Assembly (NCBI GenBank): GCA_000690595.2
Contig: JHUT02000014.1
Span: 1 to 64,000 of the forward strand
Source of the DNA: Natrinema mahii
Lineage (GTDB): Archaea > Halobacteriota > Halobacteria > Halobacteriales > Natrialbaceae
DNA length: 64,000 bases
Reading direction: 5' to 3'
The notes beneath the pieces were generated by a model. That model had not been told where the DNA came from. It made no database searches and saw nothing but the letters and a program-made list of their open reading frames with translations. Numbering within the stretch: position 1 is the stretch's first letter; every line of letters begins with the position of its first letter. The translations under genes were made by a program, and so were the position numbers. Below are positions 16,761-40,523 of this stretch, in pieces.

Positions 16761-16775
16761 TTCAGGCGGGACCCC

Positions 16776-20497: not shown

Positions 20498-20581
20498 TCC
20501 CCTTCTCGGTTTACATGCCGGAACGACAAACTCCCTACTCAGTAGTCTCTACGCCGGTGTTTGCAAGGGGGGTGAGCGCGG

Positions 20582-22216
20582 GTGCAACTGATCGAGACCG
20601 CGCCCCACGAGTTCGCGGCGCACTACCTCTTCGCCGCGCACGGTCTCGATCCGTTCTTTGCGTGCGACAGTCGGATCAAGGACGGCGACGGGAGTCAGCA
20701 CGCTGAGTTCGAATTTGAGGGGGAGTCGTGGCAGGTGACGCTCTCTTATCGAGACTCCGGCCTCGAGCATCCCGGCGAGCAACTCCCGACTGGCACCGAG
20801 TTCCGACTCGCAGAGATGCGCGAGTTCGATCTCAGTGTCGAGAGCGGCGAAGATGTCGTCGGAGAACGGTCGTTCCACGCTCATATCGCGCCGCGATGGC
20901 AGGGGATGCGAAGCGAGGGGGGTAACGAAATCAGCGTCCCCGACGATCTCGATGAAGGAGTGAATCTCCACGTTCAGGGCTCGAATATCGAATTTGACCG
21001 TTATCACCCACTGATCCAGCACGCGGCGCGCGCGGTCGGGATCAACAGCCGGTACTTCGACGAGCTACACGACTTTTCGACGATCCTCGATGCCGAGCGA
21101 TACGTACGCATCGATAAGAACGAGAGTGGCCCAGTGCATGCGCGGGACGGTCCGATAGCCCAACTGGGCCACCTGCTCGAGAACGACCGTACGGGGCGAC
21201 GCAAACTCGTTCAGTACGACAGCGATGAACTCGCTCGAGATCGTCCCGGATACTATCACACGGCGACTCTCGGCCCACGACGTGTCCGTGAGGCGTTTCC
21301 ATCGCACGAGCTACCGAAGGAGGTGAAACACTACTACGCGCAGCAGGCGGTGAGCCTGGATAACAGTCGTTCAATCGCGCATCCGAAAGTCGGTGTGTCC
21401 TACCAACGGTCGTTCTGGAAGGAGCAACTCGATGCCTCCCCGACCGATCTCGAACGTCTCAATCGCGAACTCGAGGAAACGCTTCTCAGTGTTCTCGCGG
21501 AAGCCGGTCTTCCGCTTCGATCGGGGGCTGGAACCTACGTCGACGATGCGTACTTCGTGGCCAAAGACTCCGACCGCGATCGGGATATCATCGAATTGGA
21601 CTTCACTCAGATCAAGCACCGCCAAGAGTCGGTCGTCATCAAGCACCTCGCGGACGGGATCGCCCCGACAGCGTGGGAATCCCTCGAGGTTCTCGTAACC
21701 GACGGTGGCGAGGTGAGTCCACAGGATATCGCTGACGAGACGGGCCGCCATCCAGGGAGTGTCCGTAGGGCCCTAAACAGAATTCCGGAGCTGGTCGAGC
21801 GGGAGTATGGACGGGTCTCTCTTCGATCGAAGTACATCGCTGATCTCGTCCACGACGCAGTGAAAGAGGCGAAGGAAGCGACGAGACGAGCTGCGGAAGC
21901 CGGTGCCAAGGCGATCGAAGCGGCCGAACGCGGACTCGATCACTCGACGAGCGCGTTCATCGCATGGGCCGCAAAACATGATATCGATGTCCGAGATCGG
22001 GATGGGGAAGAACTCCGTCTGGAGTTCGGTGTCGTAGACGATATCAAGCGAAAGATCCGGGAAGGTTACGAGCTATGGACTGCTGCCGATATGCCCGAGG
22101 ACCGGTATCGAATGGCCAAGATCCAATACGAGAAAGAGATCGACTCTGGCCTCCGGTCGGTCGATAAGACCGAGACGAAATCCTTTGCCTCAGTAGTGTG
22201 GCATCACCTCGGCTGA
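20582..22216 (+). CDS. Haloarchaeal mobile-element protein with C-terminal helix-turn-helix (DUF7845-like), function unknown
   Basis: This is a 544-residue protein. The N-terminus (IETAPHEFAAHYLFAAHGLD) and the blocks PLIQHAARAVGINSRYFDEL and PGYYHTATLGPRRVREAF resemble a family I associate with haloarchaeal islands (DUF7845; assigned from memory). Around residues 380-415, a stretch reading SPQDIADETGRHPGSVRRAL is a clear helix-turn-helix, followed by an Ala/Glu-rich helix likely to form a coiled coil. The start is GTG at 20582 after a purine-rich GGGGGG sequence. It is the first gene inside the left end. A role in element maintenance is possible but unproven. Confidence 0.7.
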   Translation: MQLIETAPHEFAAHYLFAAHGLDPFFACDSRIKDGDGSQHAEFEFEGESWQVTLSYRDSGLEHPGEQLPTGTEFRLAEMREFDLSVESGEDVVGERSFHAHIAPRWQGMRSEGGNEISVPDDLDEGVNLHVQGSNIEFDRYHPLIQHAARAVGINSRYFDELHDFSTILDAERYVRIDKNESGPVHARDGPIAQLGHLLENDRTGRRKLVQYDSDELARDRPGYYHTATLGPRRVREAFPSHELPKEVKHYYAQQAVSLDNSRSIAHPKVGVSYQRSFWKEQLDASPTDLERLNRELEETLLSVLAEAGLPLRSGAGTYVDDAYFVAKDSDRDRDIIELDFTQIKHRQESVVIKHLADGIAPTAWESLEVLVTDGGEVSPQDIADETGRHPGSVRRALNRIPELVEREYGRVSLRSKYIADLVHDAVKEAKEATRRAAEAGAKAIEAAERGLDHSTSAFIAWAAKHDIDVRDRDGEELRLEFGVVDDIKRKIREGYELWTAADMPEDRYRMAKIQYEKEIDSGLRSVDKTETKSFASVVWHHLG

Positions 22217-22430
22217 ACCCGCCTCGGTAGTGGCAACACTATCGAGCGCGGCGATTTCGCAGCAAACTCTGCTTCTTTCTGTATAGCTCAGTGTTCCACC
22301 CCAGGGGTACGGCACGGGGAGGCAGGAATGTGTTTTGCTGAAGTCCCCCTTAGGGACACGCCTAATAGGAAATCTAGCAAAGGATATCTGTTTCGTAGAT
22401 CGGTACTGTCTACTGTCGATTCGAGCTATA

Positions 22431-23785: not shown

Positions 23786-26700
23786 TTACCCCGTTATGAT
23801 ACCAGCGTGGTAACCCGACTGAGAGCCAACTATATTAGAACCATTCCAGACATCGTCGAATGCGGATGTTTCATTGTTTGGTATTCTTGGTTGGGTACCG
23901 CTGCTCTGAACATCTTCAAATCCGCGTATTTTGCCGTTTTGGTTTATCCTTGGAGCAGTTCCGCCGTTCTTTACATACGGGTAGGCATTGTATATCCCAC
24001 CCTTCTCGCCTTCAGTGACTATCCTCATTTTGCTGATCCTATATTGTTCTGCACTTTTTCCATCTAATGTGTATACGACTGCGTTATTGTCGTATCTAGT
24101 TTTTTCTGCAGAGTTCTTTATTAACCTAACAACTTCTTCTTCACTCATTCGGTTTGGGAGCGATTTCACAGTGTTATCAATTTGAACATTCCCGCCAGTG
24201 GGATACCATCCATGCGGCGCATCATCAGCTGACTTAACCACATGGTTTTCTCCCATACCCGTATGTTTTGATAGAATCTCGTCTAATTGCTCTTGTCTTA
24301 GCCATCTAGCCTTTCCATTCGGATTTTTTGTTATCATCCGAACTTCAGACATGTCATTAACTCTTTCAGCGTCCAATGCAGAATCGATAGTTGAATCAGT
24401 TACTCTGCTTCCGACTTGGATTTGTTTTAGATTGGATCCCTCACTTGACAAACGCTTGATTACTTCTGGATTGACACCTTGTTCGGATAGTCGCTTCGCG
24501 CCTCGGAGATCGCCCCCTTGTCTCGCTACTGATTGGATCCATTCGTCACCATGGGTGCGTTGTAATGTGTTATAGATATCTTCTGAGTAGAGTTCCTTCA
24601 GAAGTCGTTCATTGAACTCCGAAGATCCCGACCGAAGTAGTAGCGGCGTTAGTTGGTTGATCTTGGTTGGATGCCTCGCGGCGAACTGCCTTACCTTGCT
24701 GACCGTCTTCGGTGTTGCTGCTGGTCCAGAAAGGAGTCCAAGTGATGATAGTCCTGCGTCAACACCATCTCTACGCTCTGCGGCACTGACGAGGTCTCGA
24801 GCATCGGCAGCTGTCCCCACTCCTGGTGCTATAGAGGACCCCATCCAGCCGGCAAAGAAGGCTGCTGAGTGTTCTTCATCGTACTTTTTGTACTCCCAGC
24901 AATGGTCTCCGCAGGCAACTCCCCATGCTGCCGCAGAGATACCGCTGAAATCAGCGCCCTCTGCCTGAACGCGGTACTCTTCGAGACCGGGTTGGGCTCT
25001 TAAGGTTGCTGTGCCAACTGGTTTACCATTCTTATATATATCAACGTAATATCTTTTGCCAATCGAGAATTGTTCCTGAAATTCAAAAGTACCGTTCTCG
25101 TCAGCTATAGCGGTCTTATTTCCACGAAGAGTTTCAAGACGTGCGTTCTTAATCGGGCTACCGTTTTCATCCATGACGACACCTGAGACTGTTTGGGTCT
25201 GTCCAAGCTGTATCTCAATATCTTCCTCAGTTGGACTCACAGGATAGACGATTTTGGAGGGAGAAGTTCCACCACCATCGTAAATTACGATTCGATCGTG
25301 AGGTTCGATATCTTGAGAAAAGGTGACTTCACCGCTCCTGTTGGTGAGCCTTGGTTTCTGGGCACGAGTCAATTGGACTGATCTGAAACTGGCGGGACTA
25401 CCATCTTTTTCAAATACTTGAACTGAGAGAGTCTTCTCGGTATTTAGGAAAACCTCTTCTTGTGTAGTCATATTCTCACCGCTAGATCCTGCTACATTGA
25501 GTTCGGCATAGAGTTCGGTTGTTTCGCCTGGTCCTACCATCAAATCTTTAACCGGACTAACAGCGAACGACTTCTCGAACCCACCGCTAGACAGATCATG
25601 GCAGGCGATTTCATTGGGTGTGTAAACATCTGTTTCATAGAGACAAACCGTGCCCTCGTCACCGATCTGACCCGCTACTTCGATATCGAACGGTTCTTGA
25701 GATCCAACCTCTGACGGCGGTCCTGTATCCCAATGTACTCGATTTATATCGTCCTCTGTCTTGTTTGCTTTAACAACGATATCCCAAGAGATAGTGTCAC
25801 TTTTACCGCCACTTTCGTCATAGGTTACTGCTGAAACAATATACTCTCCATTATTATTGAAGCTATTATTATAGGTGGCTAAACCACTGGATCCACTGAT
25901 ACTGTTGTTCGTTTGGCGATTCCCGTCAATAGACCACTCCACAGTCTTGAGGTTGCCATCGTCGTCGGAGATGTCAATACTAAATTCAGTTGATTCTCCT
26001 TCATCAACAGTGAAATCTTGTCCGGGCGAATTACGTTCGGCTTCCGGAGGTGTGTTTTTTTCTTTAACGGTAACTTCCCAAGTAACTGCTTCGTCATTAT
26101 AGATATCTTGACTATTGAATACATCTGCTTCTACCGTGTACTCACCCGGTTCATCGAAGGTATGATCCCATTCTTCTGTGTCAGAAGACCCGCTTAACCC
26201 CCATGTTACGTCTTGTTGGTTATGATCGACGTACCACTCAGTACCGACTAGTTCTCCATCGGAATCTTCCCCGCCTACAGTAAACGTTTGACTCTCACCC
26301 TCCTCGAGAGTTATCACTTTATCGGGGGCTTCTATCTGCGATTCTGGCGGTTGATTTTCGTCTGCTTCGACAGTGATCTCCCAAGAAATTGTGTCGCCTT
26401 CAAATCCCTTCTCATCAAAAACAACAGCCGATATAAGAAACGTTCCCTTGCTATTGAAGGTGTTCTCATAGGTGTCCCTATCATTGGAACCGCTGACACT
26501 GTTTGATGTCTGGTGATTCCCATCGATATACCACTCCACGTTCCTGAGATTGCCATCATTATCCGAGACATCAACGCCAAATTCAACTGATTCACCTTTC
26601 TCGCGAGTAACGGAAAAGTCAGGAGAGTTTCGTTCGGCCCTTGGGGGCTTGTTTTCTTCTTCCTTAACAATGACAGTCCAGAGAGCTGCCTCGTCGTTGT

Positions 26701-27979
26701 ATACATCTTCATCATCGAACACATCTGCTTCTACTGTGTATTCTCCCGGTTTATCGAAGGTATGACCCCATTCGTCTGTGTCAGATGAGCCGCTCAGTCC
26801 CCATGTTACTTCTTGCTGGGTATGGTCAACGTACCACTCGGTACCGACTAGCTCTCCATCAGGATCTTCCGCACTTACAGTAAAAGTTGGGCTCTCACCC
26901 TCTTCGATAGTTATCTCCTTATCTGGCGATTCTATCTGCGATTCTGGCGGTTGATTTTCGTCTGCTTTGACGGTAACCTCCCAAGAAATCGTGTCGCCTT
27001 CGAGTCCCTGCTCGTCATAGACAACTGCTGAGACATAGTGCTTTCCATCATTGCTGAAAACGGTGTTGTAGCTGTCTACATCTCTAGAATCCCTAACAGG
27101 ATTAGTTGTCTGGTAATCTCCATCTATGTACCAGTCAACGTTCCTGAGATTACCATCGTCATCAAAGACATCGACATTAAACTCAACTGATTTGCCTTCC
27201 TCGCGGGTAACAGAAAAATCAGGAGAATCACGTTCAGCCCTTGGAGGATTGTTTTCCTCTGCTTCCTCAACGGTGACAGTCCAGAGAGCTGCCTCGTCGT
27301 TGTATGCATCTTTATCATCGAACACATCTGCTTCTACCGTGTATTCTCCCGGTTTATCGAAGGTGTAATCCCATTCATCTGTGTCAGATGAACCGCTTAA
27401 TCCCCATGTTACTTCTTGTTGGGTGTGATCGACATACCACTCAGTACCGACTAGTTCTCCATCTGGATCTTCCGCACTTACAGTAAAGGTCGGGCTCTCT
27501 CCCTCTTCGATAGTTATCTCCTTACGGGGTGATTCTATCTGTGATTCTGGTGGTTGATTTTCGTCTGCTTCGACGGTAACCTCCCAAGAAATTCTATCAG
27601 ATTTCTCCCACTCATCATTATAGACGACTGCTGCGACGAGATAGGTACCCTCGCTATCAAAAGTGGTATCGTAGGTGTCTGTATCGCTGAAACCATTAAT
27701 GCTGTTTGTAGTTTGCCGATTGCCATCAATATACCACTCAACATTTCCAAGGTTACCGTCGTCATCAGAAACATCAATACTGAATTCTACTGACTCTCCT
27801 TCTTCACTGCTAACAGCAAAATCAGGGGAGTTGCGTTCGGCTTCTGGCGAGGTAGTGGCCGAGGCTGATGTTACAAGTGCTACAGATGAAAAGAGGATAA
27901 GTATCAGCAGAATAGCACCCCCTGTTGAAACGCTATTTAAACCACTCTGCGGTCTGTCCTCGTTGTCCCCCACCAGCAT
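23786..27979 (-). CDS. Giant exported polymorphic-toxin-like protein
   Basis: This is a 1397-residue protein. Residues 20-41 are a signal/membrane helix (GGAILLILILFSSVALVTSA). Seven Ig/PKD-like domains of about 85-90 residues then alternate as two types, A (AERNSPDF, WYIDGN) and B (ESQIESP, TFTVSAEDPDGEL, EWYVDH). Next are a less repetitive region and a carboxypeptidase-regulatory-like domain (VSGVVMDENGSPIKNARLE). Residues 1039-1104 (IAPGVGTAADARDLVSA) resemble bacterial pretoxin segments. The final ~177 residues hold a variable-looking domain with EILSKHTG and GGIYNAYPY, reminiscent of EndoU/BECR-type RNase toxins. Secretion, presentation on repeats and a toxic tip fit a contact-dependent weapon. 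The toxin call is inference. Confidence 0.72.
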   Translation of the reverse strand: MLVGDNEDRPQSGLNSVSTGGAILLILILFSSVALVTSASATTSPEAERNSPDFAVSSEEGESVEFSIDVSDDDGNLGNVEWYIDGNRQTTNSINGFSDTDTYDTTFDSEGTYLVAAVVYNDEWEKSDRISWEVTVEADENQPPESQIESPRKEITIEEGESPTFTVSAEDPDGELVGTEWYVDHTQQEVTWGLSGSSDTDEWDYTFDKPGEYTVEADVFDDKDAYNDEAALWTVTVEEAEENNPPRAERDSPDFSVTREEGKSVEFNVDVFDDDGNLRNVDWYIDGDYQTTNPVRDSRDVDSYNTVFSNDGKHYVSAVVYDEQGLEGDTISWEVTVKADENQPPESQIESPDKEITIEEGESPTFTVSAEDPDGELVGTEWYVDHTQQEVTWGLSGSSDTDEWGHTFDKPGEYTVEADVFDDEDVYNDEAALWTVIVKEEENKPPRAERNSPDFSVTREKGESVEFGVDVSDNDGNLRNVEWYIDGNHQTSNSVSGSNDRDTYENTFNSKGTFLISAVVFDEKGFEGDTISWEITVEADENQPPESQIEAPDKVITLEEGESQTFTVGGEDSDGELVGTEWYVDHNQQDVTWGLSGSSDTEEWDHTFDEPGEYTVEADVFNSQDIYNDEAVTWEVTVKEKNTPPEAERNSPGQDFTVDEGESTEFSIDISDDDGNLKTVEWSIDGNRQTNNSISGSSGLATYNNSFNNNGEYIVSAVTYDESGGKSDTISWDIVVKANKTEDDINRVHWDTGPPSEVGSQEPFDIEVAGQIGDEGTVCLYETDVYTPNEIACHDLSSGGFEKSFAVSPVKDLMVGPGETTELYAELNVAGSSGENMTTQEEVFLNTEKTLSVQVFEKDGSPASFRSVQLTRAQKPRLTNRSGEVTFSQDIEPHDRIVIYDGGGTSPSKIVYPVSPTEEDIEIQLGQTQTVSGVVMDENGSPIKNARLETLRGNKTAIADENGTFEFQEQFSIGKRYYVDIYKNGKPVGTATLRAQPGLEEYRVQAEGADFSGISAAAWGVACGDHCWEYKKYDEEHSAAFFAGWMGSSIAPGVGTAADARDLVSAAERRDGVDAGLSSLGLLSGPAATPKTVSKVRQFAARHPTKINQLTPLLLRSGSSEFNERLLKELYSEDIYNTLQRTHGDEWIQSVARQGGDLRGAKRLSEQGVNPEVIKRLSSEGSNLKQIQVGSRVTDSTIDSALDAERVNDMSEVRMITKNPNGKARWLRQEQLDEILSKHTGMGENHVVKSADDAPHGWYPTGGNVQIDNTVKSLPNRMSEEEVVRLIKNSAEKTRYDNNAVVYTLDGKSAEQYRISKMRIVTEGEKGGIYNAYPYVKNGGTAPRINQNGKIRGFEDVQSSGTQPRIPNNETSAFDDVWNGSNIVGSQSGYHAGIITG

Positions 27980-28188
27980 TTTATTCTCATCCTAGCATTC
28001 CTGACCGAACTAATCACTTTTTCCCTATTATTCAGCCTACTTCCCTCTAATTACTATGTGTTCGGTTTGACTGCAATCCGCTCTTAGGTCCAATTGACGT
28101 GTCGAAAATAACCTCAAGAGAAATCACTCATCTTTACTGAAAAAAAAAAACTCATATTTCTGACACTTCTGCTGCTCCCGATACATTG

Positions 28189-28213
28189 TGTCCGGATTGC
28201 CTGCATACCGGAC
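28189..28213. promoter_or_regulatory. Operator-like dyad 1 (TGTCCGG/CCGGAC)
   Basis: TGTCCGG at 28189-28195 faces CCGGAC at 28208-28213 across 12 bp. It shares half-sites with the tandem pair at 28272-28332 and lies closer to the toxin-like gene. Confidence 0.45.
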
Positions 28214-28271
28214 GAAAATGGCCTGAAGTATAGTTCTTTAGGTGGTATTGTGGGAACAATCAGTCTGATTC

Positions 28272-28332
28272 TGTCCGACTTTAGGAAAGTTCTCGGACAC
28301 TGCTTATCCGACTCTCCCCGAATTCTCGGACA
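28272..28332. promoter_or_regulatory. Tandem operator-like dyads 2 and 3 (33-bp period)
   Basis: TGTCCGA (28272-28278) and TCGGACA (28293-28299) form a perfect 7-bp dyad. A second copy, TATCCGA (28305-28311) and TCGGACA (28326-28332), repeats it exactly 33 bp on, about three helix turns. They sit 20-80 bp before the GTG at 28352. Confidence 0.55.
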
Positions 28333-29793: not shown

Positions 29794-30402
29794 ATGAGCA
29801 AGAAACCTGACCTTCTCACTCAATTAGCTGACTCATTTGCATCTGTAATTCCGGATGTCGATACACGTGCCGAACACGATCGATGGAAATCCGGAATCGG
29901 GCCATTCGAGGAAGAGAATCAGATCGAAATGATTCTCGAAGCGCTCGAGGGCCACCCGCTACGAGAAGCGATCGAGGCTGAAGTATCGTACCTCGATGGT
30001 TCGCAACGATGCGACCTCTTTCTTGATCACGACGGGCGTCAACTTCCAGTGGAAGCCAAGCTACTCCGGTTCCGGTACGATAACGGAAACATCGATCCGA
30101 ACAGTTTCGCTCGTATCTTCACGCCATTTCCTGAACGGAGTTCCTCATCCCTACTTACTGATACAAAGAAACTCTACGAGTCAGAGTTTGGATCAAACGG
30201 CGGAGTACTCGGTCTCTATTACGAAAAAACCGATGAAGAGTACGAGCAAATGACTGCCGAGGCAGTTGCCGAGAAGTTTTGTATGGACGTGGATCACTGG
30301 TACGATTTCCAGGTAGAAACGAGGAATATCGCCTACTTTGACGGGCTACAGCATCCCAATCATCAGCAAGGCGCCGTCATCACGTGGGAGATCGTCGAGT
30401 GA
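29794..30402 (+). CDS. PD-(D/E)XK nuclease-superfamily-like protein
   Basis: This is a 202-residue protein. The core region reads EAEVSYLDGSQRCDLFLDHD followed by LPVEAKLLRFRYDNG: an Asp on one strand and Glu-x-Lys on the next, the arrangement of the PD-(D/E)XK nuclease active site. A conserved Glu upstream (ENQIEMILEALEGHPLREAI) may be the helix residue. The rest has no recognised domain. It starts at ATG 29794 and is followed 8 bp later by a truncated DUF6884 gene, so the two were probably an operon. Defence or element-processing nuclease activity is inferred. Confidence 0.6.
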   Translation: MSKKPDLLTQLADSFASVIPDVDTRAEHDRWKSGIGPFEEENQIEMILEALEGHPLREAIEAEVSYLDGSQRCDLFLDHDGRQLPVEAKLLRFRYDNGNIDPNSFARIFTPFPERSSSSLLTDTKKLYESEFGSNGGVLGLYYEKTDEEYEQMTAEAVAEKFCMDVDHWYDFQVETRNIAYFDGLQHPNHQQGAVITWEIVE

Positions 30403-31778: not shown

Positions 31779-32711
31779 ATGGAAAATGTGCATGGGATAA
31801 CCGCGAAGGAAGCCAAATCCGACAAGCAAAGCAATACGGATGGCGGCGAATCGCGGTCAGAAGAAGAAGAAGAACAGATATATCAAACAGGGCTAGTTCA
31901 GGGAACCGAGCTACCAGAACGTCCAGGACTAGAAATTCCTCGCGTCCAAGCGACTCAAGCCCATTTCGAGTTCTCGACATCCCTTGAGGGCGTCGTAATG
32001 ATTAGTATTGAGGACGCACGCCGATTAGCAGCCAAAGGGGAAACAGCGGAGTCCGTTTTCGGAAACATGCTCGTCACCGTAACGACAACCGTTCACGACG
32101 AGATACTCGAGAAATGGTATCCGGAGAAAGAAATCCAACTGGTTCTGGACTTTGAGCCCGATTTCTACGTTCCTTGTGATCGTCCAGTCTATCGAACGGA
32201 TAGTAAGAAAGAGCGACGCGAAATAATAACCCGATATCTCCGAGACTTGAAGGAGATTACCAAAGCTATCAGAAATCTCTCCACAGAGATCATTCCATTA
32301 GTCAAAGGAGAACTTCCCCGAGAACGAAAACAGTGTTATCGATGCTTTAAGGGTCTAGGCTTTGATCGATTTGGCTACTATTGTTCTCAATACTTCTTAT
32401 ATGGTAATCACGGTGAGGAACTAATCCAGGATGTCCGGCAGATCGTCAGTGAGGCACAGCCAAGAGCGATGCTACTTATCGGAGTGCAAGCATCGTCGTA
32501 CCTTCGACGTATGCCTCTCGAAGTTACTGCTGCTGCTGGAGAGCGTTGGCGGCGGAAATCTGGCCTTCGGAACGATTCACTAAGTATACAGCAGGTACAG
32601 CGGAACTATCGAGATTGGTCTCGCGAAATCGAAAAAGAGCTTGAAGGGGGTCAGTCGCGTCTGGAGAGGTTTGTCACAAACACTGCAGAGGCCTCAATTC
32701 ATGGGAACTAA
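31779..32711 (+). CDS. Unknown protein, first gene of the CBASS-like operon
   Basis: This 310-residue protein belongs to no family I can name. It has an acidic N-terminal ~60 residues, then a region with FEPDFYVPCDRPVYRTDSKK, IIPLVKGELPRERKQCYRCF, DRFGYYCSQYFLYGNHGEEL and a stretch reading AMLLIGVQASSYLRRMPLEV. Alternating strands and helices ending in a glycine suggest an alpha/beta, perhaps TIM-barrel-like, enzyme fold. CYRC could bind metal. The stop overlaps the CD-NTase start by 11 bp, so the two are translationally coupled and probably act together. It could be an effector-side or regulatory partner of the cyclase. Confidence 0.7.
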   Translation: MENVHGITAKEAKSDKQSNTDGGESRSEEEEEQIYQTGLVQGTELPERPGLEIPRVQATQAHFEFSTSLEGVVMISIEDARRLAAKGETAESVFGNMLVTVTTTVHDEILEKWYPEKEIQLVLDFEPDFYVPCDRPVYRTDSKKERREIITRYLRDLKEITKAIRNLSTEIIPLVKGELPRERKQCYRCFKGLGFDRFGYYCSQYFLYGNHGEELIQDVRQIVSEAQPRAMLLIGVQASSYLRRMPLEVTAAAGERWRRKSGLRNDSLSIQQVQRNYRDWSREIEKELEGGQSRLERFVTNTAEASIHGN

Positions 32712-33690
32712 AATAACATCACAAGACGATGCGGCAGCTGGTAAAGAAGATAGCAAGGAGGGTGGTCTTCCTGAGGAACAACAAGAACTACCCGAAAGCC
32801 GAAATGAAGCGGAGCAAGCGGCAGAAGAGGTGTGTGAAGAAGAGGCAGACCAGTCAAAGGTTTCTGAGCGAGAAGGCAAGAAAGTCGCTGATCGTCGGGA
32901 AGAAGTGCGTGATGCTCTTGAGGATGAACTCGGGATCAAAGAGCAGCATATCTTCGGTTCATTTACTCGAGGCACCTTAGTTGGCCCTCTTGACGAGGAT
33001 TCAGACACTGATGTTATGTTCGTGTTGGACGAGGAAGAACACGGAGATTGGATTCGAGATCCAGAAAATGGTCCTCGAAACAGTCTACGGCGCGTGAAGC
33101 GGATCCTTCAGAATGACTCCCGGTTTAAGCGCGCAAATATTTCTGTTGACAGGAATGTAGTAGCGATCCAGTTCGATGATTTCACAGTTGAGGTCGCTCC
33201 GGCGTTCGAGCGAGGTGATGATTACGTTATTCCGAACACGTATCGGGAAGGTGCTGGATGGGTCCGAACAAATCCACGCCGGTATAAACAACAGTTCGAA
33301 GCAGTCAACGAAAATCGGAATGGGAACGTCGCAAAGCTCGCACGACTCGCAAAAAAGTACAACGAGCAAACTGGTAAGCAGATCTCATCGTATCATATGG
33401 AAGTCATGGTGTATGATTTCATGCGAACTCGTTCTTACCAAGATGAGCCGATAGATAGACTCGTAGACGACTTCTTTGGACAACTTCCTGAGCGACTATC
33501 GAGTGGGACCTACGACCCTGCAACGGACCAAAAAATCGACGACGGCCTTCGGAATGAGGATCGTGAAGAAGCGATCTCTAACGCGAAGAAAGCGAGAGAG
33601 AAACTTCAGAGAGCTAGAGAAAGAAAAGAGAACAACGAAACAGATTCCCAAGAGCACTATGAGGAGGTCGTCGATGGTAACATCGAATAA
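32701..33690 (+). CDS. CD-NTase (cGAS/DncV-like nucleotidyltransferase, SMODS family)
   Basis: This is a 329-residue protein. After a ~75-residue acidic low-complexity N-terminus comes the polymerase-beta-like active site: HIFGSFTRGT (Gly86-Ser87) and DEDSDTDVMFVLD (Asp102, Asp104). The third carboxylate position reads VEVAPAF, with Glu instead of the usual Asp. RTNPRRYKQQF and the helical C-terminus fit the SMODS layout. Such enzymes make cyclic di- or oligonucleotides on phage sensing to trigger an effector. The start at 32701 overlaps the previous gene. The SLATT gene follows and overlaps by 17 bp. Confidence 0.85.
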   Translation: MGTKITSQDDAAAGKEDSKEGGLPEEQQELPESRNEAEQAAEEVCEEEADQSKVSEREGKKVADRREEVRDALEDELGIKEQHIFGSFTRGTLVGPLDEDSDTDVMFVLDEEEHGDWIRDPENGPRNSLRRVKRILQNDSRFKRANISVDRNVVAIQFDDFTVEVAPAFERGDDYVIPNTYREGAGWVRTNPRRYKQQFEAVNENRNGNVAKLARLAKKYNEQTGKQISSYHMEVMVYDFMRTRSYQDEPIDRLVDDFFGQLPERLSSGTYDPATDQKIDDGLRNEDREEAISNAKKAREKLQRARERKENNETDSQEHYEEVVDGNIE

Positions 33691-34231
33691 GTCTAAGAAT
33701 CGCCGATCTCTGCTAGAAGACAAAGCTATTGAGGAGATCGTGAGTCTTTGGTATACTTATAACCAATTATTTAAAGCAGCTAACTTTCACCGCCATGTGG
33801 GTCAAAGCGTGTCTTTTCTAACTGGTATTCTTGGTGGGATTCTCACCTATGGACTAATTTGGGATGGGATCCCAAATACGATTATGATTGGTTTTGCGGT
33901 CCTGATTTCCGTTCTAACTGCTCTCCGTAGCGCCTTCCAGCTCACAGATAAACAACGGGAGTTACGAGCGGCAGCGAACGAATACAAGGACTTGTGTGAT
34001 GAAACTCGACTTTTACTTCAACTGGATTTTCCTAATGAGGACATCTCAGATGTAGAGATTGAGGATAAAATTCGAGAGATCAATGATCGACGTCGAGAAC
34101 TCAACAAAGAGTCTCCTGATGTCAGCAGCTTCTGGTATCACTATATCAAGTATAGGAAATCACCCTCCGCCCTTGGAGAAATAACCGTTTCAGATACGGA
34201 ACGCGCGATCGTTACCGGGCAAGATACCTAA
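33674..34231 (+). CDS. SLATT-domain two-TM membrane protein (CBASS effector)
   Basis: This is a 185-residue protein. A helical N-terminus (IVSLWYTYNQLFKAANFH) is followed by two adjacent membrane segments (SFLTGILGGILTYGLIWD and TIMIGFAVLISVLTALRSAF), then a long cytoplasmic helix bundle (QRELRAAANEYKDLCDETRL). This is the SLATT arrangement (SMODS- and SLOG-associating 2TM effector), thought to open pores and kill the cell when it receives a nucleotide signal. GAGGAGG at 33661-33667 is a strong ribosome-binding site that fixes the start at ATG 33674, inside the end of the CD-NTase gene. Confidence 0.85.
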   Translation: MVTSNKSKNRRSLLEDKAIEEIVSLWYTYNQLFKAANFHRHVGQSVSFLTGILGGILTYGLIWDGIPNTIMIGFAVLISVLTALRSAFQLTDKQRELRAAANEYKDLCDETRLLLQLDFPNEDISDVEIEDKIREINDRRRELNKESPDVSSFWYHYIKYRKSPSALGEITVSDTERAIVTGQDT

Positions 34232-34494: not shown

Positions 34495-34791
34495 TAGTTC
34501 ATTTGATTTCCAGTCGTTGGGAGGTTTGGTTAGATCATTGATTTCTTTCTAGAGTTCGCTATATCATGTCTTCGATTCTCAGTTTTACCCCTACAGAAAA
34601 TGAAAGACCGGGTCATCAATAGGGAATTGGCCTCCAGTCACGAGTGAAAATGTCCTCGAAGACAGGCTTCGCGGACACTGTCCCGCGGTAACTACATATT
34701 CGAATTTAACGGACAATCCCTGTAGCGACTGAGGATTTCAACAGACCCAACGAAGTCTAATCCGAAACCGCTGTTCAGTGAACTGTTTCGA
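34495..34791. other. Intergenic region, 297 bp, no gene seen
   Basis: This A+T-rich convergent gap lies between the small protein and the membrane-protein gene. No clear hairpin terminator or gene is visible. Confidence 0.5.
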
Positions 34792-35862
34792 CTACTTATC
34801 TTCCTGCACGACTTCCCTTATTACGTCGGTGTATTGGTTGTCTGAAGGATCGACAAAATATTTCATGACACTGAGGACCATCTTTTGGCTAATCAACCCT
34901 CCTCGGTTCGTCAGCAGATATACCATGAACGGTATAATAATGATAACTGCTGCACCTCGAATAGACCCAGTATTGGATAGCGTAGAAAACGTAACGAGGA
35001 TGCAGAAAATCAATTCCATCGGCATCTTCGGAAGTGAACGTGAAACCACTTTCCGCAGTCCGAACCGAGCGTGAAGCAGCAAGAATGAGTAGTAAACAGC
35101 TGTAACGATTAGTGTCAGGCTGAGCATCTTTACAGCTTCAACGGTAGACAGTGCCTCGAATAACGCCGTGAAAAGCAAGAGCAAAGTGATGGAGACCAAC
35201 GCGTGAAACCCTACGATTAGAATGGGGACAGCATTCTTCTGTCTCTTAATATGCTGTTTCAGTTGGTCGTATTCTTCGGGTGTAATATCGCCTTCACGTT
35301 TCTTCCGCATCAACCGCCTTGCCTTGTCGAGATCCAGTGAATTCTCGACATCTAAGTCATAACTCGCTCTTTCCGACTGTCGATCAAAAAACAAGGCAGT
35401 CCGAGCAATCAAACCCGTTGGACTATCTTCCCCTGCCTTTTCGATAAAAGTCTCTCGACGCTGCTCGTCATACCGGAAAACCGGATGATTGAACGCCGCA
35501 AACAGTGAGACTCCGAAAACCATTGATCCTGCCAAAAGGATATACTGGTCAAAACTACCGTCAAACCGAATTGCCAGATCTCCGAGATTCTTAAACACGA
35601 GGTGGGAGGTGATTGCAACGCTGGTTACCAACATGGCTGTCCCTGTCCACCGTGCCGCGTTCGAATCGGACAAGTTCTCGTCAGAGACAACGAGATGGTA
35701 TCTGATAAACAAAGCTCCGAACAGTAGGACGAAGACACCGGTGTCAACGAACACTGGATTGGAGAAAAAAACGTTATACAGACCATAGACTGCGGTGAAG
35801 AAGAATACCTCGTAGCCTATCCGCTCTTTCACGGACAGTTTTGACCCGGCACGCCCCATCAA
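34792..35862 (-). CDS. Multi-pass membrane protein, function unknown
   Basis: This 356-residue protein has about eight membrane helices: a set of four in the first 130 residues, then a soluble segment (residues about 130-205, including LDKARRLMRKKREGDITPEE), then four more. The soluble part DITPEEYDQLKQ resembles the SHOCT-like helices often linked to membrane domains. No transport or enzymatic motif is recognised. It lies inside the island; a role in a two-component defence arrangement with neighbours is possible but has no direct support. Confidence 0.65.
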   Translation of the reverse strand: MMGRAGSKLSVKERIGYEVFFFTAVYGLYNVFFSNPVFVDTGVFVLLFGALFIRYHLVVSDENLSDSNAARWTGTAMLVTSVAITSHLVFKNLGDLAIRFDGSFDQYILLAGSMVFGVSLFAAFNHPVFRYDEQRRETFIEKAGEDSPTGLIARTALFFDRQSERASYDLDVENSLDLDKARRLMRKKREGDITPEEYDQLKQHIKRQKNAVPILIVGFHALVSITLLLLFTALFEALSTVEAVKMLSLTLIVTAVYYSFLLLHARFGLRKVVSRSLPKMPMELIFCILVTFSTLSNTGSIRGAAVIIIIPFMVYLLTNRGGLISQKMVLSVMKYFVDPSDNQYTDVIREVVQEDK

Positions 35863-35891
35863 TCAAAATTCAAATCCCAGTCACCAAGACT

Positions 35892-36119
35892 TTACTGATT
35901 ACCCTCAGATGAGTAGTCCTCACACACGACGTTTTGTAATTCATCCAGAAGGTCAGAATCATGCTTTTCAGCATGCTGCCGGAGTATTTCGATATCTCGA
36001 GGAAGTTCCTCTTGGATTTTCTTTCTAACGCGACTCACAGCAATATACGGGTTTTCTTTAGAGTCGGGATCAGTTAGCGATTCGCGTTCACCTTCAGTCA
36101 ATAGCGCACGCCGTGCCAT
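35892..36119 (-). CDS. Small haloarchaeal protein, 75 residues
   Basis: It begins MARRALLTEGERESLTDPDS and contains NPYIAVSRVRKKIQEELPRD and LLDELQNVVCED. I remember this pattern as recurring in haloarchaeal plasmids and islands without a known function. It is helical and charged, so DNA or RNA binding is possible. It is divergent from the gene at 36366 across a control region with two TTTCC-N6-GGAAA dyads, which it might bind. Confidence 0.7.
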   Translation of the reverse strand: MARRALLTEGERESLTDPDSKENPYIAVSRVRKKIQEELPRDIEILRQHAEKHDSDLLDELQNVVCEDYSSEGNQ

Positions 36120-36162
36120 ATTTGCTTATCATGGTCTGATGCATTACCATTTACGGAAACCA

Positions 36163-36202
36163 TTTCCCTATATGGAAAGTTATTAGTTTCCACATTTGGA
36201 AA
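36163..36202. promoter_or_regulatory. Two operator-like dyads (TTTCC-N6-GGAAA)
   Basis: TTTCCctatatGGAAA at 36163-36178 and TTTCCacatttGGAAA at 36187-36202 share the half-sites and spacing, 24 bp apart. A further GGAAA lies just before them (about 36155). They sit about 45-80 bp upstream of the minus-strand gene start at 36119, where a repressor could overlap its promoter. Confidence 0.55.
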
Positions 36203-36365
36203 GTGGCCACTAGCACGGGAGTGCGCCGCAAAATTGGCCAAGGGTGATGGGACACCCTCGACCGTGCTGAACAAGTCAGCATGACGCATTACGAGAACGA
36301 CGCGGATAAATCCGACGCACAGAGTCAGAATCCACGGACGATCGCAGTTACAGGGAGGTTGCACG

Positions 36366-36683
36366 ATGAGTGAGTCAAACTGGGAAGAAATAGGTCGGAC
36401 ATTGCTCCAGAAGGAACTCGAGCGGGTGAGCGAAGAGGCTGCTCACGATGTCTTTTTCCCGTCGGCACGCCGACTCGATCGAGGAGAAGACCTGCAAGCT
36501 GAAGATATCCACAGAATGCGTGAAAGCGTGGAAGAACTCCGACGACTCACTGAGTCAGCTGCAGCAGCAACCCCAGAAGCGACACCGCTTCCCGATATCT
36601 GGGATGTACTCGATGATGAAGCACGATCTCAGTACGTGCAGCACGTCCGAGAGAAATCTCAGGAGAGTCGAAAGCGGCAGTAG
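36366..36683 (+). CDS. Hypothetical protein, 105 residues
   Basis: It begins MSESNWEEIGRTLLQKELER and is almost wholly helical and charged (VSEEAAHDVFFPSARRLDRG, MRESVEELRRLTESAAA), with a likely coiled coil in the middle. No family is recognised. The start at 36366 lies 164 bp after the paired dyads. Function is unknown. Confidence 0.6.
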   Translation: MSESNWEEIGRTLLQKELERVSEEAAHDVFFPSARRLDRGEDLQAEDIHRMRESVEELRRLTESAAAATPEATPLPDIWDVLDDEARSQYVQHVREKSQESRKRQ

Positions 36684-36739
36684 CAAACCAGATAGGTGAA
36701 ACAGGCCATTTGAGGGTGTATCTATTCTGCCGGATTCAC

Positions 36740-37420
36740 CCTTCTATCTGGAATCTCTTCGTTGCCCTTACCTTGCTGTTCGCTGCTCCTCTTTGGTCAT
36801 GCCTCTTTGACGAATCACGACCGCCCCTTACACCCCCTTCAAGTGCTTGCTCGTTGCTGCTCGTTCATGGCTCGAGCTGGGGAAAGCACTTTGAGCAGGC
36901 AGAACAACCCCCTCGTTTTCGCTGGTCGTTTCTGCCCCGAACCCCCTTGCCGTCCCTGCCTTTTGCTGGTCGTTTTGCCTCGATCGAAGCGACCGCCCCT
37001 CGAGCAGCCGCTACCACCCCCTTGTTTGCCTGGTCGTTGCTGCTCTTTCGCTGCTCGAGCCGAACAAGGTGTCCCCGATCGACTCCTACCACCCCTTCAG
37101 GGCCCCCTTCTGACTGCTCGAGAGTTGGTCGCGTTCCCCTGCCGTCCCTGCCTTTTCGCTGGTAGCCACTGGTCGTCTCTCTCTGGATCGTTCCGACCAG
37201 TCGCTCGGCCAGCCATGACCACCCCCTCAAGGGCCCCCTTCTGGCTGCTCGAGACTGGGTCGTATCCCCCTGCCGTCCCTGCCTTTTCCCTGGTCGTTTT
37301 GCCTCGATCGAAGCGACCGCCCCTCAAGCAGCCGCTACACCCCCCTTGGTTGCCCGGTCGTTGCTGCTTTTTTGTTGGTCGGAGTTGCTCTACACGTCTT
37401 TGTTTTCCACCTCGGAATTG
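36740..37420. repeat. C/T-rich tract with imperfect long direct repeats
   Basis: The plus strand is strongly pyrimidine-rich. A segment of about 103 bp occurs twice (about 36942-37044 and 37266-37369), with blocks TGCCGTCCCTGCCTTTT and CTCGATCGAAGCGACCGCCC in the same order. A second unit of about 75 bp is also duplicated (37088-37164 and 37216-37292). Open frames through it read as low-complexity Pro/Ser/Cys/Leu on one strand and Arg/Gly on the other, which I do not accept as proteins. This is probably non-coding; its role is unknown. Confidence 0.7.
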
Positions 37421-37423
37421 GCC

Positions 37424-38059
37424 TTACTCGTCCGGGAGTGATCGAAGTGCTTCCCACTCTTCGTCAGTGAGATCAGCGTGACGTACCAGCCCAGCGATTT
37501 CGCTGTCACTCAGCGGTTCGCCCTGCTTTAACTTCTCACGAGCCCCCTCGTAATCGATTTCCCAGACGTTCCAATCCACGTCGACATTCACGGTCGCCTC
37601 CGCGGTTAGCTCGTTCCCGCGCGAGTCGGTGTGTTCTCGGTAGGAACTTGCCTGTTCGATAGCCTCCTCGACGACTCCTTCGAAATCTACTGAGGTTTGT
37701 GTGCTAATCACGTGATAGAGAAACCCGATAGCAAAGACTGACCCATCGTAGACTTCGATTCCTTTCGACTGATTTGGAGCTGGCGGGGGAGTCATGTCGC
37801 TGAATATGGTCTCGATCTCCTGCTCGTCCAAACAGCTCAAGAGTAGCTCAAAGTCGAGCAGCCCGTTCCTGATTCGGTCACGGAGTCGTTGGCGTAATTG
37901 GGACTCAACATGCTCCTCGAGATTCTTTTGACCAAACAGATACTCGCGATCGTCGTATGTGAGGAGCCCAGATGGCCGGCTACGCGGTTCGTCAGTATAG
38001 CGAAGTTGTAGTTTTCGCCTTTCAATCGTCTCTTCATCCTCGTTATCGTAATACGTCAT
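37424..38059 (-). CDS. Conserved haloarchaeal island protein, function unknown
   Basis: This 211-residue protein has an N-terminal block (RKLQLRYTDEPRSRPSGLLT, YDDREYLFGQKNLEEHVESQ, LRQRLRDRIRNGLLDFELLL) with the look of a conserved helical domain, and a C-terminal VRHADLTDEEWEALRSLPDE. Similar proteins are, in my memory, frequent in haloarchaeal plasmids and islands. No catalytic motif is seen. The C-rich repeat tract follows its 3' end directly. Confidence 0.68.
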   Translation of the reverse strand: MTYYDNEDEETIERRKLQLRYTDEPRSRPSGLLTYDDREYLFGQKNLEEHVESQLRQRLRDRIRNGLLDFELLLSCLDEQEIETIFSDMTPPPAPNQSKGIEVYDGSVFAIGFLYHVISTQTSVDFEGVVEEAIEQASSYREHTDSRGNELTAEATVNVDVDWNVWEIDYEGAREKLKQGEPLSDSEIAGLVRHADLTDEEWEALRSLPDE

Positions 38060-38121
38060 TAGGTATGGCTACTAACGTCGTAATATAAAAAACTAATTAG
38101 GAAGCGCACATTGAGGCTGAT

Positions 38122-38268
38122 ATGTCGTCGACCGAGTGGACGAGCATCCCAGTACACCCGGACGTACGAAACGAGATCCGCGAGGAGAAACCGGCCGGAG
38201 AGTCCTATACGGAATTCCTGCAAGGTCTCCTCACTCAGCAATCGGCTGACGACGAGAAGACACAGTAG
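38122..38268 (+). CDS. Small ribbon-helix-helix/VapB-like protein (48 residues)
   Basis: The frame reads MSSTEWTSIPVHPDVRNEIR and continues EEKPAGESYTEFLQGLL before TAG at 38266. The pattern of a strand (TSIPVHPDV) followed by two helices resembles the haloarchaeal DUF7557-like or VapB-type antitoxins with a ribbon-helix-helix fold. No toxin gene of the PIN type follows, so it may act as a stand-alone DNA-binding protein. It is divergent from the gene ending at 37424 and precedes a structured region. Confidence 0.65.
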   Translation: MSSTEWTSIPVHPDVRNEIREEKPAGESYTEFLQGLLTQQSADDEKTQ

Positions 38269-38316
38269 CAGGCATATACCAACGGCTCAGCGGTGTTGGT
38301 CCACGGCGACAGAACA

Positions 38317-38338
38317 CTGGAGTGTCCCACCACTCCAG
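38317..38338. other. Short perfect hairpin (8-bp stem)
   Basis: CTGGAGTG (38317-38324) pairs with CACTCCAG (38331-38338) across six bases. It lies about 50 bp after the small antitoxin-like gene and may end its transcript. Confidence 0.5.
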
Positions 38339-38387
38339 GGCTCTCCCCTTCATCCGGGGCGGGTGTCGCCGGCGAAGCAAATGGATG

Positions 38388-38473
38388 CTGGAGCCGATCA
38401 GGAAGATCGGAACCCCGTACCAGCTGATATGCAATCATTGCATATCAGCATTCGGGTTCCTTCTGGGCTCCAG
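38388..38473. other. Long stepwise inverted repeat (86 bp)
   Basis: Three nested pairings share one centre: CTGGAGCC/GGCTCCAG (38388-38395, 38466-38473), GGAACCC/GGGTTCC (38409-38415, 38454-38460), and GCTGATATGCAA/TTGCATATCAGC (38423-38434, 38438-38449) around a 3-bp loop. It lies in a gene-free gap of 246 bp. It could be a structured RNA, a replication or recombination site, or a binding site for an element-encoded protein. Confidence 0.7.
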
Positions 38474-38514
38474 CTCCGGTCTGGCCGACCTACTCGGCTG
38501 CGAAGACTGGACGC

Positions 38515-38748
38515 ATGCACGCAACCCACGATGACAACGCGGAACGTAGTCAGGTCGACTCGAGCGACGAAATTAGTAGCCGTACCAGCGACGAGGTTGG
38601 AAAGCGAATCGAACGATTCGGCCACGACAAGATCCGGCTCGTCGAGTGCCCGGTCTGTGGTGTTGGCCTCAGAAACAAGAAGACGGCAAATCACATCGAG
38701 AAACACTCTCCCTCCGATTTCGGGCTAACCGGGGGTGAGGTCCTATGA
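38515..38748 (+). CDS. Small zinc-finger-like protein (77 residues)
   Basis: CPVCGVGLRNKKTANHIEKH places two Cys and two His as in a C2H2 zinc finger, preceded by a charged N-terminus of about 45 residues. Such one-finger proteins are common on archaeal mobile elements. Its stop overlaps the next start (ATGA at 38745), so both are translated together. A regulatory role in the element is likely. Confidence 0.7.
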   Translation: MHATHDDNAERSQVDSSDEISSRTSDEVGKRIERFGHDKIRLVECPVCGVGLRNKKTANHIEKHSPSDFGLTGGEVL

Positions 38749-38945
38749 GTGGGGCCACTTCCGATCCGGATCGGTACGTCCAGGAGAACAAGGACACGCT
38801 CGTTCGTATCATCAAACACAGCGACGACAAGTTCGTTCGAGGGCTTGCTCTCGCGGCGATAGTCCGCTATGGAGACGAACCGCTCCTTCACGATATCGAG
38901 CACGAGATCGATCGGGCGAAACAGGACATGGAGGAACGCGTCTAA
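38745..38945 (+). CDS. Small hypothetical protein (66 residues), coupled to the zinc-finger gene
   Basis: It begins MSGATSDPDRYVQENKDTLV and is helical (RGLALAAIVRYGDEPLLHDI). It starts within an ATGA overlap with the preceding gene. It ends 8 bp before the convergent integrase gene. No family is recognised. Position next to the integrase hints at an excision or control function, but there is no direct evidence. Confidence 0.62.
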   Translation: MSGATSDPDRYVQENKDTLVRIIKHSDDKFVRGLALAAIVRYGDEPLLHDIEHEIDRAKQDMEERV

Positions 38946-38953
38946 TGACGACC

Positions 38954-40201
38954 TCAGTCCGTACTGGCGTCGGCGAACTCTCGAGCCTCCCGGAGCACCC
39001 CGGGGTTCTCGTCGGCGAGTTCGATGAACTTCTCGACTCGCTCGAGATCGTCGAGCAGTTCGGGATCATCGCGAGCAATCTTGAGAAGTTCAGTCCGGGT
39101 CTCCTCTTGTCGTTCCTCGATCTCTTCAACAGCCCCGTGTTCCATCGCTTGACCGCACCACACGCAAAGCGATTCGTTCCGTGGTGTCTTCCGCTGACAG
39201 CGGGGACAAGTCTGCGGAGAGATGGGATCGGACTCGTCTTCCTCGACGTCGACGCCGTGAGCCCTCGCGATCTCTCGATCGTTGGCGTCACCGAAGACGG
39301 CGACGTAGCGAGCGGCGACATCGGAACCGCGATCCCATCCGTGATGGTCCTCGAGGTGCGCCTGGTTGACGCCCTCGGAAGCGAGATAGGATGCGGAGGA
39401 TTTCCGCATCTGAGTGAAGGTAACGTCGGTGTGAGTGACGCCGGCCTTCCGGGCGTGCTTCTTCAGAATCTTCAGCTTCATCTGATAGCTGACTTCCTTC
39501 GGCTGGTTGAGCTGGCACCACAGTGGTGCTTGCGGATCGTTCGGTGCGGGATGGACATTCAGCCATTGTCGGAGATACGGAGCAGCAGCGATGAGCATAA
39601 TCGACCGCTCGCCCTTCTTCCCGTCGACGGAAATCTGGAGGCCGTACTTGTGATCGGCGATGTCGCCGACGGTAAGGGACAGAATCTCACCGCTTCGAGC
39701 GCCGGAGTCCCATGCGGTCGCGATGAGAGCTTTGTCGCGATGGTGACGACACTCCTCGAGCATCGGCTTGATGTGGTCGTCCCACCAGAGCATCTTCGCC
39801 GGGTCCGGCATCGGATTGTAGTTCTTCGATGTCGTCGCGGAGACCCAGGAGATACTGTCGGGGATCTCATCGCCGTCAGTGACGCGTTTGCCAAACATCC
39901 GAAGGGCGACCCGATAGTCTCGGTTCGATTCCTCGTTTTCGTAGTTACTGTGGATCCAGCGGACGATGTCTTCCGCTGCTCTCTTATCCTCGAGAGCGTC
40001 CGCGAGTCCACCAACGTTCTCGGAGATCCGAACACAGTGCCTGACGAGCTTCGCACGGCGCTGCTTACCGTACTGACTCCCGAGGAGGGCGAGTTGCCTG
40101 TCGAAGTCGATGAGGGCCTCCTGATCGTCGCTACTGATGTCTTCGCTGTCCTCGATACGCTCTTGCAGCCGTTCGAGCCGACGGTCAGCATCGCGGGTCA
40201 T
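38954..40201 (-). CDS. Tyrosine recombinase (integrase) of the island
   Basis: This is a 415-residue protein. The catalytic residues are readable: Arg169 in GARSGEILSL, Lys around 195 in VDGKKGERS, Arg266 in FTQMRKSSASYL (Thr replaces the first His of the HxxR box), the region LEDHHGWDRG, and the nucleophile Tyr299 in VAARYVAVFG. After the catalytic domain is a zinc ribbon (CPRCQRKTPRNESLCVWCGQ) and a helical tail. It lies 38 bp from the right attachment site. It should insert the element at the tRNA-Phe 3' end and, with help, excise it. Confidence 0.92.
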   Translation of the reverse strand: MTRDADRRLERLQERIEDSEDISSDDQEALIDFDRQLALLGSQYGKQRRAKLVRHCVRISENVGGLADALEDKRAAEDIVRWIHSNYENEESNRDYRVALRMFGKRVTDGDEIPDSISWVSATTSKNYNPMPDPAKMLWWDDHIKPMLEECRHHRDKALIATAWDSGARSGEILSLTVGDIADHKYGLQISVDGKKGERSIMLIAAAPYLRQWLNVHPAPNDPQAPLWCQLNQPKEVSYQMKLKILKKHARKAGVTHTDVTFTQMRKSSASYLASEGVNQAHLEDHHGWDRGSDVAARYVAVFGDANDREIARAHGVDVEEDESDPISPQTCPRCQRKTPRNESLCVWCGQAMEHGAVEEIEERQEETRTELLKIARDDPELLDDLERVEKFIELADENPGVLREAREFADASTD

Positions 40202-40239: not shown

Positions 40240-40263
40240 CCGGTTGAGGTCCGGGAGGCGGCA
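40240..40263 (+). repeat. Right attachment site (copy of the tRNA-Phe 3' end)
   Basis: These 24 bases match the 3' end of tRNA-Phe (20474-20497) with three changes in the T-loop. The last 14 bases (TCCGGGAGGCGGCA) are exact. Beyond it, a hairpin GGCTAC/GTAGCC followed by an A-run at 40272-40305 probably belonged to the original downstream flank of the tRNA. Confidence 0.88.
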
Positions 40264-40523
40264 TATTCTGAGGCTACGAACGAAGTGAGTAGCCGAAAAA
40301 ACGACGTCGAACGGATTTTGAACCAGACGAGTCGCAGCCCGCGAGCGAAGCGAGCGGGATTGTCGTCGTCAGGCGGTTCTGTGTTGTAGTGGTGGCGTCC
40401 GTCTCGACACCGTCGACCGGTATTTCCCGTCGGAATCACTCGAGCTGGGAACGGAAATCGAGGCTGAACGGCTCGTGAGTGTGGCGTACTCTCACGTTCC
40501 ACGCGAGGAACGGCGACCAACCG

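Follow-up and report, generated by a model that had tools for sequence, protein, structure and literature searches.

A pyrimidine-rich, repeat-built noncoding tract in the core of a Natrinema tRNA-Phe integrative element with a Rep-Arvir initiator

The proteins of the DUF7845 family, named Rep-Arvir, are described as rolling-circle initiators or endonucleases (PMC13107129, published in 2026). In SNJ2, the family member ORF19 carries the motif KHYYM, and the origin is formed by the 210 bp downstream of the gene, with a hairpin at the distal end (PMC13107129). When only these 210 bp accompanied it, the SNJ2 rep gene was unstable, and truncating the integrase side reduced stability; the authors explain the instability of the small plasmid by a lack of accessory proteins, and the conversion of the displaced strand to double strand appears in the accessible part of that paper as a hypothesis only (PMC13107129). 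Single-strand origins have been proposed in archaea for pRN1 and for M. mazei vectors, and, going by the available portions of the two sources, they are unproven (PMC3869888, PMC9569500). In the open-access literature, we found no paper on a haloarchaeal single-strand origin or on a haloarchaeal tract of the kind analysed here.

The tract lies at positions 36740-37420 of a 64,000-nucleotide stretch of Natrinema mahii DNA (assembly GCA_000690595.2, contig JHUT02000014.1, positions 1 to 64,000 of the forward strand), which we call the window. Judged from its surroundings in the sequence, it is a noncoding stretch in the core of an integrative element, 19.8 kb long, that sits in tRNA-Phe. The 3' end of this tRNA (tRNA 20424-20497; att half 20474-20498, + strand) recurs at 40240-40264 (+ strand) with 22 of 25 bases identical, the two halves bounding 19,766 bp, and the second half is 38 bp from the gene of a tyrosine recombinase (38954-40201, - strand; PF00589, E 2.5e-14). 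Next to the tRNA is a gene for a DUF7845 (Rep-Arvir) rolling-circle initiator (20582-22216, + strand; PF25227 match at 20582-22213, E 1.1e-120) with the motif KHYYA, followed directly on its 3' side by 152 bp (22217-22368) that are common to three elements and constitute a candidate double-strand origin. This rep-downstream sequence ends near a hairpin, recognised by eye; it is also found in two further genomes, G394 (86%) and G025 (89%), and its matches to the tract are at chance level. The DUF7845 match, the KHYYA motif and the shared sequence downstream of rep are the reasons for placing the tract inside an integrative element with a rolling-circle initiator. The element carries as cargo a CBASS oligonucleotide cyclase (32641-33690, + strand, from library searches) and a SLATT/2TM-type protein (33476-34231, + strand), the latter assigned from an NCBIfam SLATT_4 score of 52.2 bits, just under the cut-off of 55, and a PADLOC 2TM effector match at E 1.1e-13. 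We also note three 300-nt direct repeats (81-82%) at 26057-27559, inside an element ORF of 1397 aa with Ig-like and PKD domains.

The first-pass annotation had described about 680 bp strongly pyrimidine-rich on one strand, and the composition bears this out: on the + strand, the tract has 252 C, 194 T, 156 G and 79 A, or 65.5% pyrimidine. In 600-bp windows moved by 20 bp, the pyrimidine fraction reaches its maximum of 0.655 at 36721, in the tract, against a mean of 0.501 (sd 0.041) over the whole window; in 450-bp windows moved by 15 bp, the highest fraction is 0.662, at 36931. The two pairs of repeated blocks that had been noticed were also recovered, the first slightly longer than the 103 bp originally given and the second close to its 75 bp. 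The first pair, 36942-37057 and 37266-37381 (+ strand), is 116 nt long, 83% identical and spaced by 324; the second, 37092-37163 and 37223-37294 (+ strand), is 72 nt long, 88% identical and spaced by 131. Looser families comprise 60 nt in four copies (62-70% to the reference) and 54 nt in three (65-74%). We rejected a tandem or CRISPR-like array, as Tandem Repeats Finder reports four arrays in the whole window and none in the tract, and the spacings are irregular (119, 131, 183, 192, 205 and 324). The tract is intergenic between two genes that converge on it, the stop codon of gene B at 36683 (+ strand) on one side and that of gene A at 37424 (- strand) on the other.

A protein hidden in one of the frames of the tract was considered and rejected, in agreement with the earlier statement that the tract does not read as protein. 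In the alignment of its three copies, gaps include lengths of 1 and 2, so the reading frame is broken between copies, and codon scores are negative in all six frames of all eight tract segments. Genes A and B and the integrase score 0.24, 0.15 and 0.30 bits per codon in their own frames, weakly positive values to be read with the facts that one wrong integrase frame also gives 0.15 and that A and the integrase are among the 18 training genes, leaving B as the sole independent control. None of eight ORFs from the three tract copies exceeded the cut-off in a Pfam search (best E 0.0088), and tblastn of two translated tract ORFs against plasmids gave no match. The tract does have a long open + frame (239 aa), which is expected because purines, needed for stop codons, are scarce there; the similar-looking ORF of the second copy (58.7% over 196 aa) follows from the DNA similarity between the copies. 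Rfam gave no match at E up to 1 in 35500-38700, and only the tRNA reached the gathering score in 20300-40400.

Similarity searches place the clear relatives of the tract in one genus. A second copy is present in the same genome (C3:339437-340181, 84-86%), and the congener G192 has the tract core, 36908-37381 of the window, at 85% over about 475 bp, the similarity ending at both borders. Among 29 genomes of the genus (E <= 0.001), four match: these two genomes, G005 with a decayed copy (71% over about 80 bp) and G391 (78% over 66 bp). A sample of 391 genomes from the class, with the own genome among them, gave three matches at E <= 1e-4, all within the genus. At E <= 0.01, 13 of 125 genomes of the family match; the nine outside the genus are matches of 24-41 bases only, several on one motif, and from an inspection of their loci, together with two loci of the own genome, we regard them as chance, with motif counts that are mixed. 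The other genome sets searched gave no convincing tract. Plasmid and phage records, collections that may omit near relatives, gave no match, and a pattern scan of genome contigs, again from a collection in which near relatives are possibly absent, gave 25 matches, none of them haloarchaeal and judged to be chance; viral contigs gave three matches. A pyrimidine-rich stretch near a related rep in G143 was set aside, since it overlies a 260-aa ORF on the other strand. A dispersed haloarchaeal repeat was likewise rejected in the form of a 22-base pattern (at most three mismatches), which is rarer than its reversed control in the 29 genomes of the genus (34 against 61). In the same genomes, the 19-base tract motif GCCTCGATCGAAGCGACCG, with at most two mismatches, occurs about 59 times among the matches listed against once for a reversed control that contains CTAG, a word often avoided in genomes, and that may therefore be unfair. 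Only three of the motif matches are in the window tract and its second copy and the rest are scattered variants. There may be a short dispersed motif.

Looking for similar tracts in other islands, as the first-pass annotation had proposed, proved worthwhile. The full or core copies outside the window also sit in integrated elements, and in all three copies (the window, C3 and G192), the tract lies between convergent A and B. The G192 element has the same att half (L015:5602-5625), with tRNA-Phe (L140:6011-6084) about 19.4 kb away. The C3 copy belongs to an element in tRNA-Thr, bounded by 17 bp of the tRNA-Thr 3' end that are repeated exactly (L141:4081-4097 and L012:12985-13001, E 0.001), and the recombinase beside the att at L012:12985-13001 is 39.6% identical to that of the window. 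The Rep proteins, each encoded next to a tRNA, are 94-97% identical in the three elements and all have KHYYA where SNJ2 ORF19 has KHYYM. Across the elements, the order A-tract-B is kept, whereas cargo differs in each and, for C3, so do the type of integrase and the att site. In place of the CBASS genes, C3 has an Eco57I-type protein of 1442 aa, and G192 a GIY-YIG protein and others; one cargo gene, 29794-30402, is common to the window and G192 (93%). A CBASS system and an Eco57I-type gene are therefore differing cargo within one family of Rep-Arvir elements. Besides the tract core and the rep-downstream sequence, the stretches 28187-28300, 34567-34677, 36207-36365 and 38302-38514, noncoding according to the gene list, align to both other elements. 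On either side of the variable defence cargo, all three elements have a noncoding segment of about 110-145 bp: 28187-28300 and 34567-34677 in the window, L141:7701-7830 and L012:6395-6538 in C3, and L140:1636-1750 and L015:11653-11763 in G192. The window segments are 71-74% identical to the others, C3 and G192 agree at 97% (left segment), and parts of the right segment also match L163 and L172; the segments may be borders of cargo exchange. Decayed relatives of the element, with an interrupted rep, are seen near tRNA-Phe in G025 (C55, near 16442-17645) and G005 (C1, near 3289155-3290168).

Gene A (37424-38059, - strand) encodes 211 aa, predicted to be all-helical, of a widespread haloarchaeal family that is present in 244 of the 391 class genomes; an alignment of 26 members has the invariant motif G-x-L-x-x-x-D-R-x-x-L. 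The window protein gave no Pfam, NCBIfam, PHROG or PADLOC match at E 0.1, and the best match of a gene A profile to PDB sequences was at E 0.082. Gene B (36366-36683, + strand) encodes 105 aa, predicted to be helical, which library searches assign to no family. It is present in four of 125 family genomes: the own genome (twice), G192, G005 (a remnant of 29 residues) and G395 (25-26% identity and no tract match). The G395 relative (L057:1480-1797, on the 19.6-kb contig C9) lies just 5' of an ORF (L057:1915-2553) that by eye looks like a TnpB-type protein. Fold searches of A against PDB and of B against viral proteins gave nothing at E <= 0.001; no gene B was confirmed in viral contigs, and genes A and B were both without a match in plasmids. 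Directly 3' of gene B, at 36688-36753, there is an 8-bp inverted repeat (CCAGATAG / CTATCTGG), with one change in the C3 copy, which could be a 3' end signal of the gene. The core module further contains a 75-aa gene on the - strand (35892-36119; PHROG 26393, function not known) and three small + strand ORFs (38122-38268, 38515-38748 and 38745-38945) with no Pfam match at E 0.01. The nearest gene A outside the genus, among the 391 class genomes, is in G368 (50%), where its neighbours include an integrase of 77% identity and relatives of these small genes; the 19 kb of this locus that we examined contain neither gene B nor the tract. A tract beside every gene A homologue was rejected for the 33 loci scanned (L041 gave no alignment). 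A purine-rich, multi-block downstream region with a repeated motif was found among them only at L012, L015, L018 (the window) and L016/L023, the last two being one place where the purine-rich motif region lies in the first block only.

Comparison of the window with G192 provides a yardstick for the divergence of the tract. The integrases are 95% identical and their four-fold sites agree at 168 of 191 positions (12% differ), the tract core is 83-85% identical (15-17% differ), and gene A and gene B have amino-acid identities of 36% and 58%. Because the tract diverges about as much as the four-fold sites of the integrase, no selection needs to be invoked outside one block, provided that the locus was inherited vertically. 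An earlier idea of strong purifying selection on the whole tract, derived from the saturated four-fold sites of A and B, was dropped, since, measured against the orthologous integrase, it is A and B that stand out; to judge from these alignments, they are exchanged or fast-evolving parts of the locus. The exception within the tract is the block 37196-37311, which has an imperfect dyad inside. Only 4 of its 116 columns vary among the three copies, whereas 100 of 454 do so across the core, and 5000 permutations produced no such window; the test counts gaps as variable, treats columns as independent and uses a length of 116 chosen after the alignment had been viewed. Constraint and recent gene conversion would both fit the block.

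The three-copy alignment was folded with RNAalifold, giving -131.8 kcal/mol and 119 pairs for the + strand and -129.4 kcal/mol and 125 pairs for the - strand. Changes on both sides of a pair number 4 of 119 on the + strand and 3 on the - strand; 19 of 500 shuffles reach the + value. Plain column shuffles give z of -4.8 for the + strand (0/100) and -2.0 for the - strand (3/100), shuffles that keep the dinucleotides of one row -6.3 (0/150) and -2.3 (0/150) with RNA parameters, and DNA parameters -4.6 (0/100) and -2.4 (1/100). With two rows only, the + strand falls to -3.1 and -3.1 and the - strand to -1.8 and -0.2, and pieces of 150 columns lie between -0.2 and -2.5, except for one of -4.1. Much of the fold is long-range pairing between the repeat copies. 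Controls were not uniformly weak: 12 strand tests on six other alignments ranged from -4.5 to +1.9, the alignment at 38.1-38.5 kb giving -4.0 and -4.5. Folded singly as RNA, the tract copies give -2.0 to -5.5 and the controls -5.0 to +0.6, and as DNA, the copies give -3.1, -4.0 and -3.9 on the + strand and -3.3, -2.8 and -4.2 on the - strand, with no steady strand preference in either case. We conclude that a fold favouring the + strand, which is the sense strand of rep, has modest support from these models. The structured RNA suggested by the first-pass annotation accordingly keeps this modest support from the three-copy alignment and is weakened by the strong control values.

We suggest, tentatively and at less than even chance, that the tract is a cis-acting DNA site for replication or maintenance of the element. 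It is noncoding, it is kept in the element core across three related elements, and it contains a near-invariant block. We consider it equally likely that the tract is a neutral repeat remnant. In that case, unequal recombination and slippage would have expanded a noncoding spacer between the convergent genes into a pyrimidine-rich array of imperfect repeats that now drifts, and the block would be due to recent gene conversion or transfer between elements. Such a patch would account for the length changes between tract copies, one of them of several tens of bases, for a divergence near the neutral rate of the orthologous integrase, for the confinement of clear matches to one genus in the sets searched, and for a mixed site pattern, as after exchange between copies: the window agrees with C3 at 34 sites, C3 with G192 at 32 and the window with G192 at 23, and all three differ at 6. 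It fits less well with a block in which 4 of 116 columns vary against 22% overall, and with the retention of the tract between A and B, genes that have themselves been replaced or have greatly diverged. The decaying repeat array that had been proposed at the outset may also apply: G005 has a decayed copy and, with vertical descent, the overall divergence calls for no selection.

Two weaker rivals make use of the same observations. The tract could act as RNA, either as a structured noncoding RNA or as a long 3' untranslated region of gene B on the + strand, with a role in regulation of A, as antisense to the A transcript or in protein binding. Its position is suitable, immediately after gene B and in antisense orientation to any transcript running on from gene A, and the + strand fold pairs 95.8% of its cells in 119 pairs, with z as low as -6.3 (-4.8 in plain shuffles). 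However, Rfam has no match, all but one of the 150-column pieces give z no lower than -2.5 and controls equal some of the tract values; in addition, the better survival on the + strand of changes compatible with G-U pairing may in part follow trivially from the many exchanges between C and T in a strand so rich in these two bases. We regard a function as RNA as unlikely. More doubtful still is a recombination anchor, that is, a repeat-rich site at which homologous exchange swaps A, B and cargo between elements. The G192 comparison is what favours it, for the integrase (95%) and tract core (85%) are close, yet A and B are far diverged and most cargo is different, with breaks at 36908 and 37381. 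Any noncoding sequence would serve this purpose, however, and the conserved noncoding segments at 28187-28300 and 34567-34677, which flank the cargo directly, are better suited to cargo exchange.

Returning to the cis-acting site, a replication site, as first proposed, is the reading that would best fit the context of an integrative element with a rolling-circle initiator. On this reading, the excised circular element would use the tract as a cis-acting DNA site in its replication or stable maintenance. Our most specific guess, one form of this reading and an improbable one by our own estimate, is that the tract acts as a single-strand (lagging-strand) origin. The displaced + strand, in the sense of rep, would fold over the tract into long imperfect stems, the folded strand would offer the host a start point for the second strand, and what is recognised would be the repeats and the near-invariant dyad. 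The tract is a reasonable candidate for such a start because a rolling-circle replicon needs one and because the tract is noncoding, foldable and kept while integrase, att site and cargo change. The instability of the SNJ2 rep with its 210 bp alone and the reduced stability on truncation would be in keeping with this, although the authors' own explanation lies in accessory proteins (PMC13107129). In its fullest form, which we likewise think improbable, the tract would be a Rep-Arvir single-strand origin of its own kind, long, built of repeats and pyrimidine-rich on the displaced strand, that is carried between elements with A and B as integrase, att site and defence cargo change. On the circle, followed in the direction of rep, the tract precedes the candidate double-strand origin by about 4.6 kb, which would place it 5' of that origin if the rep-sense strand is nicked. 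This distance counts against the proposal, as single-strand origins usually lie nearer the double-strand origin in the systems covered by the available parts of PMC3869888 and PMC9569500. Against any cis-acting site are also the near-neutral divergence, the origin of the tract copies from one small clade, with Reps 94-97% alike, and the Rep loci that do without a tract. Of 36 Rep places listed in the genus, three belong to elements that have the tract in full or its core and one to the decayed element; G394 has a Rep of 89% identity and the downstream sequence and no tract. In favour of a cis-acting site, in genomes with broken close relatives of the window rep, the tract is either decayed (G005) or was not found (G025 and G290). 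A noncoding region that can fold, with its near-invariant block, in the cores of three related elements is a concrete place in which to seek the start of the second strand.

Several known systems resemble this locus in part. Repeat RNAs of type III toxin-antitoxin systems are, like the tract, noncoding repeats beside a small gene. In those systems, the repeats lie 5' of the toxin gene, on the strand that encodes it; we rejected this assignment, as both neighbours of the tract read into it. With other tRNA-integrated archaeal elements, the window element shares an att site in the 3' end of a tRNA and a recombinase beside the att (PMC8371274), and the accessible part of that review of recombinases describes no such tract. 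The resemblance to Rep-Arvir replicons is closer. SNJ2 ORF19 and the window element have in common a DUF7845 initiator, a KHYY motif and an integrase at the other end (PMC13107129), and the conserved noncoding sequence 3' of rep, which ends near a hairpin, may be a further parallel. They differ in that the window element bears CBASS cargo, with no virion genes recognised among the ORFs searched, and in the tract itself, as PMC13107129 places the origin downstream of rep and describes, in the part available, no counterpart. Single-strand origins of the pT181 type, as far as the available portions of the sources go (PMC5714925, PMC3869888, PMC9569500), are like the tract in being noncoding, possibly with a strand-specific fold, in a rolling-circle replicon and apart from the double-strand origin; the tract is longer (about 470-680 bp), rich in repeats and 4.6 kb from the candidate double-strand origin. 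If the comparison holds, the tract would be, as far as literature searches show, the first candidate for a single-strand origin in haloarchaea.
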